NCBI GenBank assembly: GCA_947627355.1
Contig: CANQVX010000006.1
Span: forward strand, 1-64,000
From: an uncultured Bacilli bacterium
GTDB lineage: Bacteria > Bacillota_I > Bacilli_A > RFN20 > CAG-631
DNA length: 64,000 nucleotides
Direction of reading: 5' to 3'
Numbering within the stretch: position 1 is the first letter of the stretch; every line of letters starts with the position of its first letter. The notes under the pieces are model-generated. The model did no database searches, was not told the origin of the DNA, and was given only the letters and a program-made list of their open reading frames with translations. The position numbers and the translations under genes were made by a program. Of this stretch, positions 25,248 through 36,145 are shown in pieces.

Positions 25248-27350
25248 ATGCTTAGTAGATTTAATGAAAAAGCCCAACGTGCCATAGCCCTAGCAGAAAG
25301 TCTTGCTTTTGATTTTGGTCATAACAGTGTTGGAACAGAACATTTATTATTAGCTTTATTAAAGATAAAAGATTGTAAACTTAAAACAATTTTAGAATCT
25401 TATCATGTAAATGCCACAATATATCAAGAAGAACTTATTGAACTATTTGGTAAAAAGCCAACTCAACCATTTTATATGGAATATACCATTGCCTTAAAAA
25501 ATCTAATTGAAGATGCTTTGATTGCTAGTAAAAGAAAACAAGAAGAAAAAGTAAGCCTTGAAACACTTAGTATCTCACTTTTAGAAATGGAAGAAAATAT
25601 TGCCCTAGAAATACTAAAAAAGTTGAATGTACCGATAAAAAATGCAGTTGAAGAGCTTAAAAAACAATCAAGAAAACATAGTGAATTAGATAATATTGCT
25701 GATTTAATCAATCTAAATAACAAGGCTTTAAAACAAGTTCCTATTTTAATTGAAAGAGATAAAGAATTAAATTTATTATTTGAAGCATTGCTTAGAAAAC
25801 AAAAACCAAATGCGATATTAATTGGTGAACCCGGGGTTGGTAAAACTGCTATTGTTGAATATTTTGCTCATCTAATTAACTTAGGAAAAGTTCCTGATAA
25901 ATTAAAAGATAAAACTATATATGAAATTGATATTTCAGGAATAATTGCCGGAACTAAATATCGTGGTGAATTTGAAGAAAAATTAAAAAAGATAATCAAG
26001 AAAGTAAAAGAAGATGAAAATGCCATCTTATTTATCGATGAAATACATAACATTATTGGTGCTGGTGGTGCTGAAGGAGCAATTGATGCTAGTAATATCT
26101 TAAAACCATATTTATCACGTGGTGAAATTGTTTGTATTGGTGCTACAACCTATGATGAATATGTAAAAATATTTGAAAAAGAAAAAGCCTTAGAAAGAAG
26201 ATTTCAAGTTGTTAAAATTGAAGAACCTTCAATTAGCCAAACCTTACATATCTTAAAAGAAGTCAAGTCACAATTTGAAACATTCCATAATCTAAAAATA
26301 AGTGATGAAATCATAAAAAAGATTATCAATTACTGTAACTTATATGTAAATGAGCGTTATTTTCCAGATAAAGCGATTGATGTCTTAGATATTTCAAGTG
26401 TTAGAGCTAATAATAGAAATCAAAAAGAATTAGAAGAAAAAGATATCATAGAAGTTATTGAAGATTTATTTAAAGTTAAAATTGAAAAAGGTAATAAGGC
26501 TAAAGCCCTAGAAAAAAGTTTGAACCAAATTTTAATTGGCCAAAAGCCAGCAATCGCAAAAATTGTCGAGCAAATCGAATATATTGAGATGGGATTGAAT
26601 GATGAAAATAGACCTTTAGGGGTGTTTTTGTTTGTTGGCCCAACAGGTGTTGGGAAAACAGAAACAGCTAAACAAATAGCCATTAAATATTTCGGTAATA
26701 AAGATAAATACGTTAAATTAGATATGTCTGAGTATAGTGAACCAAGTTCAGTTACTAAATTAATTGGTTCACCACCAGGCTATGTAGGCTTTGAAAGACA
26801 AAGTTTATTGGTTGACCATATTCGAAAAAATCCCCATTCTGTCGTAGTTTTAGATGAAGTAGAAAAGGCTCATAGAGATGTTTTAGATATCTTTTTAAGT
26901 GTTTTTGATGAAGGCTATTTCTATGATTCAAATAAGAAAAAAATTGATTTTAGAAACACTATTATCATCATGACGTCTAATCTTGGTTTTAGTGAAACGA
27001 TGTTTCATAAAAACAAAATAGGCTATGTAAATAACCAATATAACAAAGAAGATGTTGACATAGTTATAAGCAATCACTTCAGGCCGGAATTTCTAAATAG
27101 AATCGATTCTATCGTCAATTTTGACGTTTTAAGTGAAGAAACTTGTAAACAATTAGCTAAAGATTATTTAAATGAATATGCTAGAAAAGTAAACTATGAA
27201 ATAGCAACTATAGATGAAATGGTATCAGAAATAGCTAAAGATAAAGAAAGTAAAAACTATGGTGCTAGAGGGATAAAAAGACTAGCTAAACAAAAATTAA
27301 TTAAACAAATCAAACAAAACCATAAAATAAAAGATAATTCTCGTGTTTAA
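25248..27350 (+). CDS. ClpC/ClpA-like AAA+ chaperone, M-domain absent
   Basis: A 700-residue Hsp100 unfoldase with two ATPase modules. The Clp N-domain (about 1-145) opens with FNEKAQRAIALAE and GTEHLLLALLK. NBD1 has GEPGVGKTA (about 192) and LFIDEIHNI (about 262); NBD2 has GPTGVGKTE (about 463) and VVLDEVEKAH (about 531). The linker runs straight from the first to the second module, so the coiled-coil M-domain of ClpC (needed for MecA control) is missing, as in ClpA. The ClpP-docking loop position reads KIGYVNN, where ClpC normally has VGF. ClpP is not in this window. AAGGTGAT precedes the ATG. Confidence 0.88.
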   Translation: MLSRFNEKAQRAIALAESLAFDFGHNSVGTEHLLLALLKIKDCKLKTILESYHVNATIYQEELIELFGKKPTQPFYMEYTIALKNLIEDALIASKRKQEEKVSLETLSISLLEMEENIALEILKKLNVPIKNAVEELKKQSRKHSELDNIADLINLNNKALKQVPILIERDKELNLLFEALLRKQKPNAILIGEPGVGKTAIVEYFAHLINLGKVPDKLKDKTIYEIDISGIIAGTKYRGEFEEKLKKIIKKVKEDENAILFIDEIHNIIGAGGAEGAIDASNILKPYLSRGEIVCIGATTYDEYVKIFEKEKALERRFQVVKIEEPSISQTLHILKEVKSQFETFHNLKISDEIIKKIINYCNLYVNERYFPDKAIDVLDISSVRANNRNQKELEEKDIIEVIEDLFKVKIEKGNKAKALEKSLNQILIGQKPAIAKIVEQIEYIEMGLNDENRPLGVFLFVGPTGVGKTETAKQIAIKYFGNKDKYVKLDMSEYSEPSSVTKLIGSPPGYVGFERQSLLVDHIRKNPHSVVVLDEVEKAHRDVLDIFLSVFDEGYFYDSNKKKIDFRNTIIIMTSNLGFSETMFHKNKIGYVNNQYNKEDVDIVISNHFRPEFLNRIDSIVNFDVLSEETCKQLAKDYLNEYARKVNYEIATIDEMVSEIAKDKESKNYGARGIKRLAKQKLIKQIKQNHKIKDNSRV

Positions 27351-27394: not shown

Positions 27395-27793
27395 ATGAAA
27401 CAAAAAAGTATTATTATGGCTACATTTATATTTATTGGGGGTTTTATACCTTTAAAAGGCACTATTCAAAACGAAAGAAATGTTTATTATCAGCTCTATG
27501 CTAAAAGCACAGAATCATATCTTGAATGTAACGAAATCAAAAAAGAAATTTTAAGGGTTTATGATAGCCTACCGATTTATAAATTTAATGACGTAAAAAA
27601 GCAACTAAAAAACCATCTAAAAGACTTTGAATTTAGTGGTGTAAATTCCGTCAATTTTGATGATAAAAATCTAGCCTTAAATGTCTATTTAGATGATTCT
27701 AATTGTCTTGTTATGAAAGGCTATTTATATGAAGTCGAAGCAAACCAAAATATTTTAAATAAAAAATATTTTATAGAGCAAATTTTTCACTAA
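27395..27793 (+). CDS. Secreted or membrane-anchored small protein, unknown
   Basis: A 132-residue protein with an N-terminal hydrophobic segment (about 5-22) after MKQKS, likely a signal peptide or anchor. The rest is charged, with two cysteines (about 45 and 109). I do not recognise a family. AAGGAGTG precedes the ATG. It lies 44 bases after the clpC-like gene and before a terminator, so it may be read from the same transcript. Confidence 0.6.
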   Translation: MKQKSIIMATFIFIGGFIPLKGTIQNERNVYYQLYAKSTESYLECNEIKKEILRVYDSLPIYKFNDVKKQLKNHLKDFEFSGVNSVNFDDKNLALNVYLDDSNCLVMKGYLYEVEANQNILNKKYFIEQIFH

Positions 27794-27858: not shown

Positions 27859-27936
27859 TTGACTAAAGGGGTAAAACAAAGTATAATATTTAAAACTATT
27901 CACGCACGCATGAATTGTGTTTTATTATCGCGTGAA
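27859..27936 (+). promoter_or_regulatory. Promoter and leader of the opp operon
   Basis: -35 TTGACT (27859-27864), 17-base spacer, -10 TATAAT (27882-27887). The leader carries an inverted repeat TTCACGC (27899-27905) and GCGTGAA (27930-27936) enclosing 24 bases, which could form a stem loop ahead of the AGGAGG site. Confidence 0.75.
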
Positions 27937-27961
27937 AAAAATATTTTAGGAGGATATAAAA

Positions 27962-30193
27962 ATGGCAAAAAGAAATTTGATTTTGTTATCTGCCTTTGCA
28001 GCACTAGCTGTTTGTTTAACAGGTTGTGGTGGAGATAAAGGCGGAAATTCAAACAAAGATGGAGTTTTAACTTTTACAGACTCAGAAGTCTATAGACAAA
28101 TTTTACCTGATTACAAAGCTTTATTTGATGATGCTCATAAATCTATGGACAACACCGAAAGATATGTAAAATTTGCTAAAGCAGAAGCGTATTTATTAGA
28201 TCAAGCAGTTATTTTACCTTTTAATACTGAAGGTGGAAGATATGGTCTATCTAGAGTACTTCCATACACTGGTCCATATTCTAGATATGGTTCTGATTCA
28301 AGCAAATATAAAGGTTACAAAATTATTAAAACCAAAAATTATGATTTACTTCCAACTGATAGAAGAAATGAACTAAAACAAGACTGGAAGGCAGCTGTTG
28401 AAAGAGGCTTTGATGCTACAAATACTAAAGAAGCATTCAATGCTGCTGAAAAGGCTAAATTAGATGCATGGGGTTATACAAGTTTCTATACTGATTACAC
28501 TACAATCTTTTCATCTATGCCTACTACACTAGACTATTTAGCTTCTAGTCACGCTCAAGATTCAGATATTACAACAAACTTAGTTGATAATTTATTTGAA
28601 CATGACCGTTTTGGTGATATCGTTCCAGCTTTAGCTTTAAGTAAAGAAGTTGATTCAACTGGAAAAGTTTACACTATTCATTTAAGAGAAGGCGTTAGAT
28701 GGGTTGATAATGCTGGTACAGATAAAGGCGAAGTTGTTGCTGATGACTTTGTAGCTGGTATGCAACACTTATTAGACGCTAAAGGTGGTTCTGAAGATAT
28801 CATGAATAGTATTCTTGTAAATGCTCAAGAATATTCAGATAAGAAAACTACTAACTTTGCAGATGTTGGTATTAAAGCAATTGACGCTCATACATTACAA
28901 ATTTCATTCAATAGAGCACTTCCATATGCTGATTCATTATTCACATTCTCAGTATTTGCTCCATTAAATCGTGATTTCTTCTTAAGTAGAGGCGGAGCGT
29001 TTGGTATCGATGAATTTAGAAGAGCTAAAGCAAAAGCTTCTTATACATTTGGTAATGTTAACGATCCTCAATCAATTCTATACAATGGTGCTTATCGTTT
29101 AACTGAAATCACTGCTGCTCAAGGTATTACATTCAAAAAGAATGAATCATACTGGGATAAAGAAGAAGTCAACTTAAATACAGTAAAATTAATGTATACA
29201 GCTGACCTAGATGCTTCATTATATCTAGATAGCGTTCTTAATGGTGAATATGCTGGTGCTTCATTATCTGATGAAACAAGAGACCAAGCAATTGCAGCCG
29301 GCGTTGAAGATTGCATTTATCAACAAGATACAGCTGCTGGCACATTCATTGGTGCTTTCAACTACAACCGTAAAAATTATGCTTTAGGTACTGGTACTAG
29401 AGCTGCTGTTAAATCTCCAAAATATGATGATAATGTAGCTAAGAACTTAACTAAAGTTGCATTACTTAACAAAAACTTTAGAAAGGCATTCTATTATGCA
29501 ATTAACAAAGGTAGTTACAACAGTTTAGTTTCTGGCGAAAATTTAAAATACACTAACTTAAGAAACATGCTTACAGCTCCTGAATTCGTAAGTCTTCCAG
29601 AAGCATATAACCAAGATGGTTTGAACTATGCTGCTCATACATCTTATGGCGATATCGTTCAAGCTGAACTTGATAAATTATTAGCTGTTGAAAACCAAGC
29701 TCATACAGATTGGAAAGAACTTGATGAAGACAAACACCCAACAGATAAACAATTACTTGAAAAGATTGATGTTTCTGATGGTGTTGATGGTTGGTATCAA
29801 GCAGATCTTGCTAATTACTACTTCAAATTAGCAAAAGAAGAATTGTTAAATGAATGGGCTGATGATTTTGGTGGAAGAGAAAAAATGGAAGCTGCATTCC
29901 CAGTTCAAATCGATGTTGTTTATTTAGCTGAAGATACTCAACCTTTCACAAACTTAGCAACTTCACTTGAAACTGCACTTGGTAAGAGTGCTATTAAAAT
30001 CAATGGTGTTAAAGCTGCTAATGAAGATGACTATCTTGCATCAACTTATATGATTGCAACTGGCGAAGAAGCAAATTATGATTTCTATTGTGGTTCTGGT
30101 TGGATTCCTGATTATGCAGATCCAGCAACATTCTTAGAAACATTAGTTCCAGGTGGTAATGGTTATCTAACCAAGACACTTGGCATGTGGTAA
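27962..30193 (+). CDS. oppA: Oligopeptide ABC transporter substrate-binding lipoprotein, apparently circularly permuted
   Basis: A 743-residue extracytoplasmic binding protein of the SBP_bac_5 family. Signal peptide and lipobox LTGC (Cys 22) are clear. The usual N-terminal start of the mature fold (YTTIFSSMPTTLDYL, then NLVDNLFEHD) only begins near residue 178. Residues about 35-150 instead resemble the family's C-terminal end (ERYVKFAKAEAYLLDQAVI, then LPYTGPYSRYG). The protein stops at DPATFLETLVPGGNGYLTK, where relatives continue for some 100-150 residues. So the C-terminal module seems to have moved to the front. Both joints stay in frame. AGGAGG precedes the ATG. It is the first gene of the opp operon. 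Confidence 0.88.
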   Translation: MAKRNLILLSAFAALAVCLTGCGGDKGGNSNKDGVLTFTDSEVYRQILPDYKALFDDAHKSMDNTERYVKFAKAEAYLLDQAVILPFNTEGGRYGLSRVLPYTGPYSRYGSDSSKYKGYKIIKTKNYDLLPTDRRNELKQDWKAAVERGFDATNTKEAFNAAEKAKLDAWGYTSFYTDYTTIFSSMPTTLDYLASSHAQDSDITTNLVDNLFEHDRFGDIVPALALSKEVDSTGKVYTIHLREGVRWVDNAGTDKGEVVADDFVAGMQHLLDAKGGSEDIMNSILVNAQEYSDKKTTNFADVGIKAIDAHTLQISFNRALPYADSLFTFSVFAPLNRDFFLSRGGAFGIDEFRRAKAKASYTFGNVNDPQSILYNGAYRLTEITAAQGITFKKNESYWDKEEVNLNTVKLMYTADLDASLYLDSVLNGEYAGASLSDETRDQAIAAGVEDCIYQQDTAAGTFIGAFNYNRKNYALGTGTRAAVKSPKYDDNVAKNLTKVALLNKNFRKAFYYAINKGSYNSLVSGENLKYTNLRNMLTAPEFVSLPEAYNQDGLNYAAHTSYGDIVQAELDKLLAVENQAHTDWKELDEDKHPTDKQLLEKIDVSDGVDGWYQADLANYYFKLAKEELLNEWADDFGGREKMEAAFPVQIDVVYLAEDTQPFTNLATSLETALGKSAIKINGVKAANEDDYLASTYMIATGEEANYDFYCGSGWIPDYADPATFLETLVPGGNGYLTKTLGMW

Positions 30194-30281: not shown

Positions 30282-32030
30282 ATGGGGAAATACATACTGA
30301 AACGTATTGGGCGTTCCATTTTATCGCTTATAGCGATTATGATTTTTACTATTATTCTTATTTATTCATTAATGAACAAAGACACATTAGTTGCTAAACA
30401 AGAACAATATCAAAAAACGTCTAATAACGAAAGACTTATGTTTAAGTACCAAGTCTGGGAAGACTATGGTTATATCGAAACTTATGATTATGTAAATTTC
30501 TGTGCTGTTAAATACGATAGAGGAACAGAAGATTTTAATCGTTGTGAAGATATCGAACAAGTATTTGAAAGTAAACAAAAATATTGTGAAATCACGACTA
30601 GCCGTTTAGGTTATAGCGATTGCATGGCAAAAGATCGTGATTATTTAGTTGATAGCGATATTCCTGAAATCAAGGAATTCATCGATAAATATACAAAAGC
30701 GGGTTATACCATCGTTAGAGCTAATCCTGTGCCTCAAGATGTCTACGATGATGCATATAATCCAGGTAACGATGAAAACACAGATAATACCATAAGTGAA
30801 ACAAATGATGGCCCTCGACCTGATGAAGTTCGTTATATGGAACTAAAAGCAGGTGGTGAAGGTAAACTTTTAGCCTACAGAAATAGGTCAACATTTGCGC
30901 GTTTATGGGATTTCTTTAAGAATATATTCTATTTTGATGGACAAAATTATTACAAAAAAATCAATGCTGAAAGAATTAATGAAGGGCTTGCACCAATTGA
31001 TATTACTCCTTCCTTAACATTTGGTAAAGATCCTCATACCGGCACTTTATCTTTAAGATGCGTTGGTTGTAAAAATAAATATTTATTATATTTTGATGGA
31101 AAATTCCCATTTATTCATCAAAATTGGCTTGAATTCAATTTAGGCCGTTCTTATTTTTATCAAAAAGATACCGTTGAAGTTATGACTGATCCTCAAGGTG
31201 ATCCATACGAAGAAGATGTTACATATCCAAATGGTACAACCCAATCTGCTCATAGAATGAATTTCTTTTCATGTCAATTAAACCCTAACGCCATGGAAAG
31301 CGATAAGATTTTATATGATGGCTACTATACAAGTTGTATGGAAGCAAAACAAGGTAAATCCATGATTGGTTATTCATTTATGATTGGTATTTTATCAACC
31401 GTTATTTCTTATTTACTTGGTGTACCTATTGGTATTTTAATGGCTCGTCATAAAGGAAAAGCAGTCGATAAAATCGGTATTTGTTATATTGTCTTTATGA
31501 TGGCTGTTCCATCTCTTGCTTATATCTATATGTTTAGAAGATTAGGCCAAGATATGGGCCTTCCTATCAATTTAAGAGTAACAGCGGATAGTCCAGCGTG
31601 GACTGCATATATTTTACCTATTGTTTCACTAGCACTTCCATCAATTGGTGGTTTAATGTCTTGGATTCGTCGTTATATGATTGACCAAATGAATAGTGAC
31701 TACGTAAAATTTGCTCGAGCAAAAGGATTGAGCGAACTTGAAATCTTCAACCGCCACATCTTTAAAAATGCTGCTATTCCTATTATTCATAACATTCCTG
31801 GAGGATTCTTGGGAGCTTTAACTGGTGCACTTATTACTGAACGTGTATTTGGTGTTCCAGGTGTTGGTAAATTGTTTACTGATGCTATTGAAAAGACCGA
31901 TAATAGTATGTTAGTTGGTTTAACCTTCTTCTATGCTATCTTATCGATGACAGCGTTAATTTTAGGCGATGTTTTAATGGCTATTGTCGATCCTCGTATT
32001 TCATTCTCTGAAAAAGGAGGTCGAAAATAA
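30282..32030 (+). CDS. oppB: Oligopeptide ABC transporter permease OppB with large extracellular insertion
   Basis: A 582-residue permease; typical OppB has about 310. Membrane helix 1 lies at about 9-30 and the remaining helices begin near 362. The approximately 320 residues between them should be outside the cell, and contain many aromatic residues and several cysteines (for example LRCVGCKNKY near 265). The cytoplasmic EAA loop YVKFARAKGLSELEIFNRH near 470 contacts the ATPases. GGAAGGAG precedes the ATG. The stop and the oppC start share TAATG. Confidence 0.9.
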   Translation: MGKYILKRIGRSILSLIAIMIFTIILIYSLMNKDTLVAKQEQYQKTSNNERLMFKYQVWEDYGYIETYDYVNFCAVKYDRGTEDFNRCEDIEQVFESKQKYCEITTSRLGYSDCMAKDRDYLVDSDIPEIKEFIDKYTKAGYTIVRANPVPQDVYDDAYNPGNDENTDNTISETNDGPRPDEVRYMELKAGGEGKLLAYRNRSTFARLWDFFKNIFYFDGQNYYKKINAERINEGLAPIDITPSLTFGKDPHTGTLSLRCVGCKNKYLLYFDGKFPFIHQNWLEFNLGRSYFYQKDTVEVMTDPQGDPYEEDVTYPNGTTQSAHRMNFFSCQLNPNAMESDKILYDGYYTSCMEAKQGKSMIGYSFMIGILSTVISYLLGVPIGILMARHKGKAVDKIGICYIVFMMAVPSLAYIYMFRRLGQDMGLPINLRVTADSPAWTAYILPIVSLALPSIGGLMSWIRRYMIDQMNSDYVKFARAKGLSELEIFNRHIFKNAAIPIIHNIPGGFLGALTGALITERVFGVPGVGKLFTDAIEKTDNSMLVGLTFFYAILSMTALILGDVLMAIVDPRISFSEKGGRK

Positions 32031-33010
32031 TGGAAATTAATAAAGATAATATTCCTCAAGAATTATTTAGACGTGTTGATAACAATTCAATTGATACTGA
32101 AAAAATCACCGCTCCTAGATATTCTTATTGGAAATCAGTGTTTAGAAGTTTCTTTAGAAACCCTGTAAACTATGTTATTTTGGCCTTAGTTGTTGTCATC
32201 TTATTCTTATCATTTGTTTATCCATTTTTTGCTAATTATGATATCGATAGATGGTATTCAAAGAACTTAGCAGAATATGGTAGCGTTGCTCCAGTAGACT
32301 TTTTAACACCAAAACAAGCAATAGCCAAGTTTGGCTTTAAACTTCGTTGGGTGTTTGGTACTGGCAGACTTGGCGAACCTTTATTTGATGCTTTATGGGC
32401 TGGTGCTCAATCATCTCTTGCTTTAGCCTTTGTATGTGCAATTATTAACTTAACTTTAGGCATTATTATTGGTGCTATCTGGGGTTATTCCAAGAGATTT
32501 GATAAAATAATGCAAGAAGTTTATAACGTTATTTCAAACATTCCTTCACTTATGTTTATTACTGTCTTTGTATCCATTGTTGGTACAGGTTTCTGGGCCT
32601 TTGTTGCCGCTATGACAGTTACTGGTTGGATTGGTATTGCCTACTTTATCCGTACTCAAGTTATCATTATTCGTGATAGAGAATATAACTTAGCTTCTAA
32701 ATGTTTAGGTACACCGATTTTAAGAATGGTTACTAAAAATATCTTACCTTTCTTAACATCAGTAATCGTTACTATTACAGCTAGTGAAATTCCATCATAT
32801 ATTTCAACCGAAGTATTCCTATCTTATTTAAAGATTGGTTTAGGTTCGAGAAATTCATTAGGTAAATTAATTAATGAAAATCAACAATACATGAATTACC
32901 ATCCTCATATGTTCTGGATACCGGTAATATTGTCGTCATTAATTACTGTAAGTTTATATATTATAGGTCAAAACTTAGCTGATGCTTCTGACCCTAAGAC
33001 ACATATGTAA
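32030..33010 (+). CDS. oppC: Oligopeptide ABC transporter permease OppC
   Basis: A 326-residue permease of normal length with an N-terminal cytoplasmic segment ending SYWKSVFRSFFRNPVNY, helix 1 at about 50-70, and five more helices. The EAA loop is REYNLASKCLGTPILRM near 215. It pairs with OppB to form the channel. Overlaps oppB by one base, with GGAGG upstream of the ATG. Confidence 0.93.
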   Translation: MEINKDNIPQELFRRVDNNSIDTEKITAPRYSYWKSVFRSFFRNPVNYVILALVVVILFLSFVYPFFANYDIDRWYSKNLAEYGSVAPVDFLTPKQAIAKFGFKLRWVFGTGRLGEPLFDALWAGAQSSLALAFVCAIINLTLGIIIGAIWGYSKRFDKIMQEVYNVISNIPSLMFITVFVSIVGTGFWAFVAAMTVTGWIGIAYFIRTQVIIIRDREYNLASKCLGTPILRMVTKNILPFLTSVIVTITASEIPSYISTEVFLSYLKIGLGSRNSLGKLINENQQYMNYHPHMFWIPVILSSLITVSLYIIGQNLADASDPKTHM

Positions 33011-33024
33011 AGGGGGAAAAGTAG

Positions 33025-35268
33025 ATGAGCGAAGAAAAGAAAGTATTATTATCAATTAATAATCTAGAAGTTAAATTTAATGTCCGTGGTAGACAACTTA
33101 CCGCAATTCGTGATGTTTCATTTGATATTTATGAAAATGAATCAATTGCAATTGTAGGTGAATCTGGTAGTGGTAAATCAGTACTTACTAAGACTTTTAC
33201 TGGTATGCTTGAATCAAATGGTATTATCACAAAAGGAAACATCATTTATCAAGATGACCAACTATCAGCACTTAAAATTAAATTATCAAGATTTGATGTT
33301 ATTCGTTATAATAAATTGGTTGAATTTTTAAATAGAAACGCTAAATACATTGGTGGCAAAGATATCTATTTAAAAATGCAAAAATTGAAAAACGAATTTG
33401 AACAATCAAAGAGACTAACAGATGAAGAATTAGAAACTTATAAAAGAAAAATTGATGATTTAAATTATCAAAGAACTGAATACTATAACAAGAAAATCGT
33501 TGCTCCTAACAAAAGTAAAAAGCAACAATACGAAGAAGATATTAAGAATCTTCAAGTTCAAATCAATGGTTTAAATAAAAAACTATTACAAGCCGAAAAT
33601 AAAGAAGAAATTGAAACTGAAATTGCTTCTTTAAATGCTCAAATTGAAGAACTTAATAGAAAAATTGAAACAGCTTCAACTGAAAACGAAAGAAAACGTT
33701 ATGCTCAAGCAATCAAAGCTTTAGATAACCAAATTAAAGAAATCAAAAAAGAAGAAAAACAAGCTAGAAAAGCTCGTTGTTTAAGTGTTAAACAAAATAA
33801 AGAAGCCATCTTAGAATATAAACAAACTATGGCTAACTTAAATAAAGACTACATTAAAGCCGTTGATAATTATGTAGTAAGCGAAAATGTCCTAAAAAGG
33901 AATAAGGAATTAGCAAAAGAAATCATCTTATCGATTAATCGTTATTCGATTTTAACTCAATTCTTCTACTTACACAGCCTAAAAGATCGTTTTGAAAATG
34001 CTTTTCGTAATAATCTAGAATTCAACGATAAAACATTAGAAAAACTATATGAATTAATTACTTTTAGAGTTTTATATAAAGGTGTTGAAAACGAATATTT
34101 CAATCCATTAGATGAAAAAGAAGCAAAAGAATTAGAAAAAACTAACGAAAAAACTTTAAAAGATGCTAAAAAAGGTGTTTATTATAGTAAAATTGTAAAC
34201 TATGCTAAACAAATCAATGCTAATGAAAAATTTGTTCAATATGTTATTAAAGTTTTACTTGAATCAAATAGATATAGTGATTTAGATAAATTACTAGAAG
34301 AAACAAGTGAAAAACTAATAATTTCTCCTAACAGTATCTTAAAAGGTTATACAATTCTTGATTTAACTAAGATTAAAACTGCTAGTGAATGGCAAAAGAT
34401 TCGTGGTTCAAGAATTGCAATGGTCTTTCAAGATCCTATGACTTCACTAAACCCAATTGTTACAATTGGAAAACAAATCACTGAAGTTATCATTAAACAT
34501 CAAGATTGTAGCATGGCTGAAGCTGAAAAGAGAGCCATTGAATTAATGGATAAGGTCGGTATTCCTGATGCTGCTAAGCGTTTTAAAGAATATCCTTTCC
34601 AATATTCAGGTGGTATGAGACAAAGAATAGTTATTGCTATCGCGCTTGCTTGTCAACCTAAGGTTTTAATTTGTGATGAACCTACAACAGCTCTAGATGT
34701 TACAATTCAAGCTCAAATCATAGAATTAATCAAAAAACTACAAAAAGAATTCCAATTCACAACAATTTATATTACCCATGACCTTGGTGTAGTTGCTAGT
34801 GTTGCTGACCGTGTGGCTGTTTTATATGCTGGTCAAATTGTGGAAGCTGGTTTAGTTCATGAAATTTTCTATGATCCTAGACATCCTTATACTTGGGCTT
34901 TATTATCATCACTACCTCAACTTGCTATCAAGGGCCAAGAATTATTCTCAATTCAAGGTACGCCTCCATCTTTATATAACAAGATTAAAGGTGATGCTTT
35001 TGCTGAAAGAAACCCTTATTGTTTAGCAGTTGATTTAGAATATGAACCACCAAGATTTTATGTAAGTGACACTCACTTTGCTAAAACTTGGCTCTTAGAT
35101 CCACGTGCTCCAAAAATATCAAAACCTTCTCTAATTGAAAACATCCATGAAAAATTAGAACTTGCTCAAACCAAGTTGAATAAGGAGGAATATGCCTATG
35201 TCAGACACAACAAAGAAAGAAGTAATCTTGTCACTACGCAATATAGACATCGAATTTCAAAAAGGTAA
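33025..35268 (+). CDS. oppD: Oligopeptide ABC transporter ATPase OppD with long coiled-coil insertion
   Basis: A 747-residue ATPase; normal OppD has about 340. Walker [10 protein letters not shown] is at about 44-52, but the Q-loop [12 protein letters not shown] comes only near 470. The roughly 365 residues between are rich in Lys, Glu and Gln with heptad-like patterns, predicting coiled coil. Signature YSGGMRQR (about 527), Walker [12 protein letters not shown] (about 550) and the OppD C-terminal region (GTPPSLYNK) are intact, so ATPase function is likely. The last 71 bases overlap oppF. Confidence 0.92.
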
Positions 35269-36145
35269 AAGAGTTTTCAAAGCCGTTAAGAATGTAAGTT
35301 TTGATATTTATAAGGGTGAAACATTTTCATTAGTTGGTGAATCTGGTAGTGGAAAAACAACAATTGGGCGAGCAATTGTTAGAATTAATCCATTAAGTCA
35401 TGGTGAAATCTTATTCAAAGGTAAAAGAATCTCTGGTAAGATTTCTCATAGCGAAGATAGAGACGTTGTTCGTAATATTCAAATGATTTTCCAAGATCCT
35501 GCTGCTTCTTTAAATGAAAGAGCAACTGTTGAATATATCATTAGTGAAGGTTTATATAACTTCCACTTATACAAGAATGAAAAAGATAGAGTAAATAAAA
35601 TCAAACAAGCTCTTTCTGATGTTGGCTTACTTCCAGAACATTTAACTCGTTATCCACATGAGTTTTCTGGTGGTCAAAGACAAAGAATCGGGATTGCTAG
35701 ATCAATCGTTATGGAGCCTGAAATCATCATTGCTGATGAACCTATTTCAGCATTAGATGTATCTATTAGAGCTCAAGTTTTAAACTTATTTAAGAAGTTT
35801 CAAGCTGAACGTGGTTTAACATATTTATTCATTGCTCATGACTTATCAGTTGTTAAATTCATAAGTGATCGTATTGGTGTTATTTATCAAGGAAGAATCG
35901 TAGAAATAGCATCAGCTGAAGAATTATTTGAATATCCATTACATCCATATACTAAATCTTTAATGTCAGCGATCCCTATTCCTGATCCAATTCTTGAAAA
36001 TAATAAAGAATTATATGTATATGATGAATCAATTCATGATTATTCAAATGAAGAACCTAAATTAGTTAATATTGGTCATGACCATTATATTTTAGGTAGC
36101 AAAGAAGAAATAGACGAATATATCGAAGTTAGAAATAAAAAATAG
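35198..36145 (+). CDS. oppF: Oligopeptide ABC transporter ATPase OppF
   Basis: A 315-residue ATPase with Walker [17 protein letters not shown]-loop [14 protein letters not shown], signature [13 protein letters not shown] and Walker [12 protein letters not shown]. Normal length, without the insertion seen in OppD. The ATG at 35198 is chosen because AAGGAGG sits 9 bases upstream; the ATG at 35192 is too close. It begins inside the end of oppD. Confidence 0.93.

Follow-up and report, generated by a model that had tools for sequence, protein, structure and literature searches.

The oppA gene at positions 27962–30193 of the window (the whole 64,000-nucleotide stretch analysed here, part of a 32-contig draft genome) was confirmed to encode an oligopeptide-binding lipoprotein of the Ami type (SBP_bac_5) in circularly permuted form. 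Two colinear segments of the canonical protein have exchanged places, each is present in a single copy, and the old termini are joined in frame. No other SBP_bac_5 gene was detected in the 1.57-Mb genome, and the oppA product is very probably the functional lipoprotein that captures peptides for an oligopeptide ABC importer of the Ami type. The order is not private to this one gene, and the window OppA belongs to an old and widespread permuted subfamily.

All features of the locus lie on the forward strand. The 743 aa open reading frame runs from an ATG at 27962 to a stop at 30193 and is preceded by an AGGAGG ribosome site at 27948 and a putative sigma-70-like promoter (27859–27887; consensus match only), in which TTGACT at 27859 and TATAAT at 27882 are separated by a 17-nt spacer. 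The chain begins with a signal peptide and an LTGC lipobox (aa 1–22, 27962–28027), the cysteine of which (Cys22) was invariant in two alignments of permuted homologues (10/10 and 41/41). A new linker, mostly of low pLDDT and 12–95 aa long in most homologues, leads from the lipid anchor to the moved segment (aa 23–39, 28028–28078). The moved C-terminal module (aa 40–128, 28079–28345) comprises the tail of domain III and the last segment of domain I, as judged from matches to PDB structures and to the canonical relative L007, and aligns with about residues 447–514 of mature OppA. It is followed by the former C-terminal helix alpha-19 (aa 129–148, 28346–28405; alignment, and a model helix at 132–148), which has been described for the Ami-family binding proteins (PMC11192437). 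A second new linker (aa 149–177, 28406–28492) bridges the old C- and N-termini. It includes a helix at 156–169 in the model, a glycine (Gly171) that is invariant in 41 permuted sequences, and the motif L..xGY/H, found in 81/87 permuted proteins as against 2/26 canonical proteins. The core, from the old mature N-terminus to the new C-terminus (aa 178–743, 28493–30190; delimited by phmmer and VIA-align), starts in the model with the old first strand (residues 178–183) and carries the peptide N-terminus recognition motif GSGWIPDYADP (30092–30124), located by alignment with AliB and containing W714 and D717.

When the protein was compared with PDB sequences using phmmer, two blocks were recovered in reversed order. 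Residues 179–731 matched AmiA (8a42) 16–500 (i-E 1.4e-58), while residues 46–142 matched AmiA 522–618 (i-E 1e-5). The blocks were likewise reversed in the matches to AliB and AliC, where the module gave i-E values of 9.1e-8 and 5.9e-10, respectively, and aligned with residues 517–610 of AliB. Canonical L007 (genome G009), which comes from the same taxonomic order, has the same operon order (L036/L122) and carries the module last, matched the same structures as a single colinear block (45–685 to 7–612), and its C-terminal 106 residues were 41% identical to residues 35–150 of the window protein (E 1e-23). A further relative, L011 (G016), has the normal order, but its contig ends before the module. 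A preliminary description of the sequence had proposed that residues 35–150 are the C-terminal module; the phmmer matches to AmiA, AliB and AliC and the comparison with L007 agree, and the moved segment can now be placed at about residues 40–148, including alpha-19, with the linker at 149–177. The old mature N-terminus near residue 178 was borne out by the alignment with AmiA and AliB, and the frame is open over both joints, from 27962 to 30193, as had also been reported. Simple duplication, with a second, hidden module downstream, was considered and rejected, as tblastn of the window found one copy each of the moved segment and the core and no further copy.

NCBIfam and Pfam annotation of the permuted OppA gave no sign of the permutation. 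The sole Pfam family was PF00496 (SBP_bac_5), with 112.6 bits against a curated cut-off of 32.4, and the match covered positions 2–365 of the 368 in the profile, so that the core reads as a full-length member of the family. The reason is that the end of the PF00496 profile nearly coincides with the cut, which makes routine annotation blind to the rearrangement. A whole class of re-wired receptors goes unseen where PF00496 is the sole basis of annotation.

The new C-terminus at residue 743 corresponds in the structural alignment to residue 533 of AmiA and residue 528 of AliB, and the chain thus stops where homologues carry the moved module, as the preliminary description had noted. In the sequence alignment, the cut falls at about residues 441/447 of mature E. 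coli OppA. Domain III (297–582 in AliD) forms lobe 2 of Ami-family proteins, whose P2 pocket is made up of regions R1 (523–530) and R2 (532–538) (PMC11192437). Because the cut lies inside domain III beside R1 and R2, the new ends and the lipid anchor are placed in lobe 2, near the P2 pocket, and the membrane tether appears to have shifted there from lobe 1. The earlier expectation that both ends lie in lobe I holds for the old termini but not for the new ends, which are in lobe 2, whereas the displacement of the lipid anchor that it foresaw is in keeping with a cut in domain III. The window OppA does not have the canonical chain order with both termini in lobe 1 and, since its chain order is permuted, it is a variant of SBP_bac_5 rather than a plain member. 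Location of the lipid anchor on lobe 1 would then not be a general rule for SBPs, and the position of the tether may matter for the receptor.

An AlphaFold model, made from an alignment of 41 proteins that are all in permuted order, had a pLDDT of 89.4 and a pTM of 0.89, with the moved module mostly at 90–97. Its best structural matches were AmiA, AliB, AliD and AliC (PDB 8a42, 8qlj, 8qlc and 8qlh; PMC11192437), which share the fold over residues 175–743 with Z of 28–32; the distance was 1.8 Å for both AmiA and AliB. The VIA-align match to AmiA joined residues 175–743 to 33–533 (Z 30.8, 1.8 Å over 496 residues), and, this alignment being sequential, the moved module lies outside its span. The two-lobed OppA fold is present in the predicted model, and the protein is likely to fold as a normal two-lobed clam with the moved module in place, the packing of that module having been gauged from pTM and pLDDT alone. 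The suggestion that permutation could leave a working fold is thus consistent with the intact predicted fold and its structural matches.

A sister species (G001) has a 75% identical copy of the gene, with the joints in the same places. Between the two, dN/dS, calculated from NG86 values, was about 0.07 for the moved module, 0.19 for the core and 0.17 overall, and these low values indicate that the permuted OppA is under purifying selection. When a profile of permuted proteins was run against 85,000 species genomes, 78 of the best 80 loci were found to start with the moved module, one of them (L084) being broken; the other two are the canonical L122 (G009) and L113, which is without an in-frame module. 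In total, 85 distinct open reading frames with the full permuted order were found, including that of the window. They occur in Bacilli and in MAGs labelled Clostridia or Spirochaete, and the record titles name Lachnospiraceae, Oscillospiraceae, Christensenellaceae, Erysipelotrichaceae, Sphaerochaeta and others, though these names are taken from MAG labels, which may be in error. A peptide-import receptor with its last piece first is found both in this gut-type bacterium and in numerous gut bacteria that are not related to it.

The permuted OppA of L052–L131 are 59–68% identical across MAGs labelled Clostridia, Erysipelotrichaceae, Treponemataceae and Sphaerochaeta (labels unverified), and close relatives were rare in the genomes sampled from two other phyla (2/247 and 3/299, query genome included). 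High identity across phylum labels together with rarity within phyla suggests horizontal transfer. Transfer of the operon among the L052–L131 carriers is likely, and the permuted Ami-type clade as a whole (type Ia) has probably spread patchily by this means. A search of plasmids for carriers returned core matches only, with no record spanning 80% of the query.

The permuted order has arisen more than once. In a maximum-likelihood tree built from the core alone, with the moved module excluded, the permuted protein L012 (G043) fell inside a canonical clade with starred support. Placing all permuted proteins in one clade was rejected (dlnL 278, p-AU 7e-109), and the same constraint was rejected in a second tree (dlnL 285, p-AU 2.5e-45). 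The L012 subfamily (type Ib) contains the permuted L204/L012 (G043), L205 (G329) and L206 (G436) as well as the canonical L207 (G392) and L208 (G506). Identity of L012 to the other four ranges over 55–66% in the module and about 48–56% in the core, the values for canonical L207 and L208 being 61–66% and about 50%. The joint is still visible in type Ib, where the old C-terminus (..AYDSG) runs directly into the old mature N-terminus (GFISLANxNANP). Judged from these sequences, type Ib (L012, L205 and L206) is a second, independent origin of the module-first order.

Type II was found in three genera of another Bacilli family (f14), in the SBP_bac_5 lipoproteins L185/L192 (G063:C47:24553-26418), L193 (G105:C1:2020871-2022691) and L194 (G085:C113:6089-7897), all adjoining opp permease and ATPase genes. 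Here the chain begins mid-protein at DVNVRRAIS and ends at WYLEFNINNH, with some 10–30 linker residues between the old C-terminus and the old N-terminus that follows it. The segment order in L185, L193 and L194 is 3-4-1-2, with the cut at about residue 282 of mature OppA. Permutation of SBP_bac_5 proteins thus has at least three origins in Bacilli and two cut sites. The wider proposal, that these proteins have been repeatedly re-circularised (at least three origins, two cut sites) and that the recurrent cut in lobe 2 is adaptive, altering docking of the receptor, is tentative and, taken as a whole, doubtful. Were it true, the receptor would hang from the lobe that grips the peptide N-terminus and its docking on the AmiC-type permease domains would be altered. 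Because the Ib pairs are approximately 50% identical, the same cut was used twice and a different cut also occurs, the mechanism and the selective reason are directly testable.

Misassembly of the MAG, or a strain chimera, is an exceedingly improbable source of the order. The window does belong to a draft assembly, but the same joints are found in the sister species and in more than 80 further independent loci, which shows that they are not an assembly break; the preliminary description had proposed looking for the order in close relatives as a check. The linker is also conserved across permuted proteins, and type II permutation was found even in a two-contig assembly (G105). It is unlikely, if not strongly so, that the window lineage was permuted apart from the other type Ia proteins, or that L007 and L011 returned to the normal order. 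The best-matching stretch of the window protein beyond its own genus is in canonical L007 (44% identity, residues 175–573), and the trees do not settle the base of the Ia clade, where canonical L007 and L011 lie beside the window lineage. Against this, holding the permuted Ia proteins together increased the lnL by 2.46 and was not rejected, and the derived linker motif is common to the window and other Ia proteins but absent from L007 and L011.

Circular permutations are generally attributed to duplication, fusion and loss of the ends, and the tandem SBP genes that are common in these genomes (e.g. G194:C94, G062:C3, G073:C46) fit this model. A tandem duplication of oppA would have been the first step, followed by in-frame fusion of the end of copy 1 to the mature start of copy 2 and loss of the outer parts, with the lipoprotein signal retained or recaptured. 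The last ~110 ancestral residues (the lobe-2 end, the last lobe-1 segment and alpha-19) now come first, directly after the lipobox; a short helical linker bridges the old C- and N-termini, and a lobe-2 loop near the P2 peptide pocket forms the new end of the chain. No intermediate with fused tandem copies was found. Module shuffling would yield the same domain order: an OppA that had lost its C-terminus would have gained, at the front, a C-terminal piece from a different binding protein. This reading was raised for TpMglB-2 by its authors, the permuted part being poorly conserved in that case (PMC4990184). However, the moved module most resembles the one found in canonical relatives of the very protein that carries it (61–66% for Ib and, for Ia, 41% to L007), and the quick tree of the module places the Ia group and L012 as the core tree does. 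Since the quick trees of module and core give the same groups, capture is less likely, and we consider it very improbable. The moved module might also work between two molecules, and AliC has been crystallised as a domain-swapped dimer, though with a different hinge (residues 290–294; PMC11192437). The single-chain model of the window protein is nevertheless confident throughout (pTM 0.89) and the linker is conserved and predicted to be helical, and a domain swap appears quite improbable.

A natural circularly permuted ABC-importer binding lipoprotein is already known. TpMglB-2 (Tp0684), a glucose-binding lipoprotein of Treponema, is the proposed founder of 'Type Ic / Cluster Bc', which is spread over treponemes and gut Gram-positives, and its authors raise anchoring as a reason (PMC4990184). 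Unlike the window OppA, it is a Type I/Cluster B sugar binder with another cut, in which N-terminal strands were moved to the C-terminal end, and its permutation is a separate evolutionary event. Membership of the window protein in Type Ic / Cluster Bc was rejected, as the best sequence and structure matches were all SBP_bac_5-type peptide, nickel or related binders. In the open literature (subscription journals mostly lay outside the search), no permuted SBP_bac_5 protein was found, only TpMglB-2, engineered sensors and unrelated work. It is rare to find a natural circular permutation of a large protein together with close relatives from before and after the event, and the striking features here are the recurrence, the near before-and-after pairs and the apparent shift of the anchor from one lobe to the other. 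The window OppA shares the W/D peptide motif, alpha-19, the lipobox and an operon with a long OppB/AmiC-type permease with the pneumococcal Ami proteins, but differs in having the last ~110 residues in front, a new linker helix, and termini and anchor assigned to lobe 2.

The protein carries a lipobox and its gene stands first in an intact oppABCDF operon, as for the binding lipoprotein of an Ami/Opp importer, and the order SBP-B-C-D-F is kept in nearly all permuted loci with sufficient flanks. W714 and D717, invariant in 41 permuted sequences, match W500 and D503 of AliB, which hold the peptide N-terminus (PMC11192437), and the window protein would be expected to bind peptides as AmiA and AliB do. 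Taken together, the W/D motif, operon order and predicted fold make the ordinary role the most likely one: the receptor, though re-wired and tethered differently, would capture oligopeptides for an importer of the Ami type.

The permease gene oppB (30282–32030, 582 aa, PF00528 at 380–574 only) encodes a long extracytoplasmic N-terminal part, with about 350 extra residues ahead of the permease domain as in AmiC-type permeases; OppB is mostly 525–674 aa in type Ia permuted operons. It is followed by the second permease gene, oppC (32030–33010), in the conserved order, and by the ATPase gene oppD (33025–35268). OppD, at 747 aa, has an insertion of about 350 aa (aa ~99–445) between the Walker A part and the remaining ATPase; lengths of about 590–750 aa are usual in type Ia permuted operons, compared with 354 aa in the canonical L036 operon. 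The listed open reading frame of the ATPase gene oppF (35192–36145) overlaps the end of oppD, and its true start is possibly further downstream. Immediately upstream of oppA are a 700-aa ClpC/ClpB-like AAA+ open reading frame (25248–27350) and then a 132-aa open reading frame (27395–27793).
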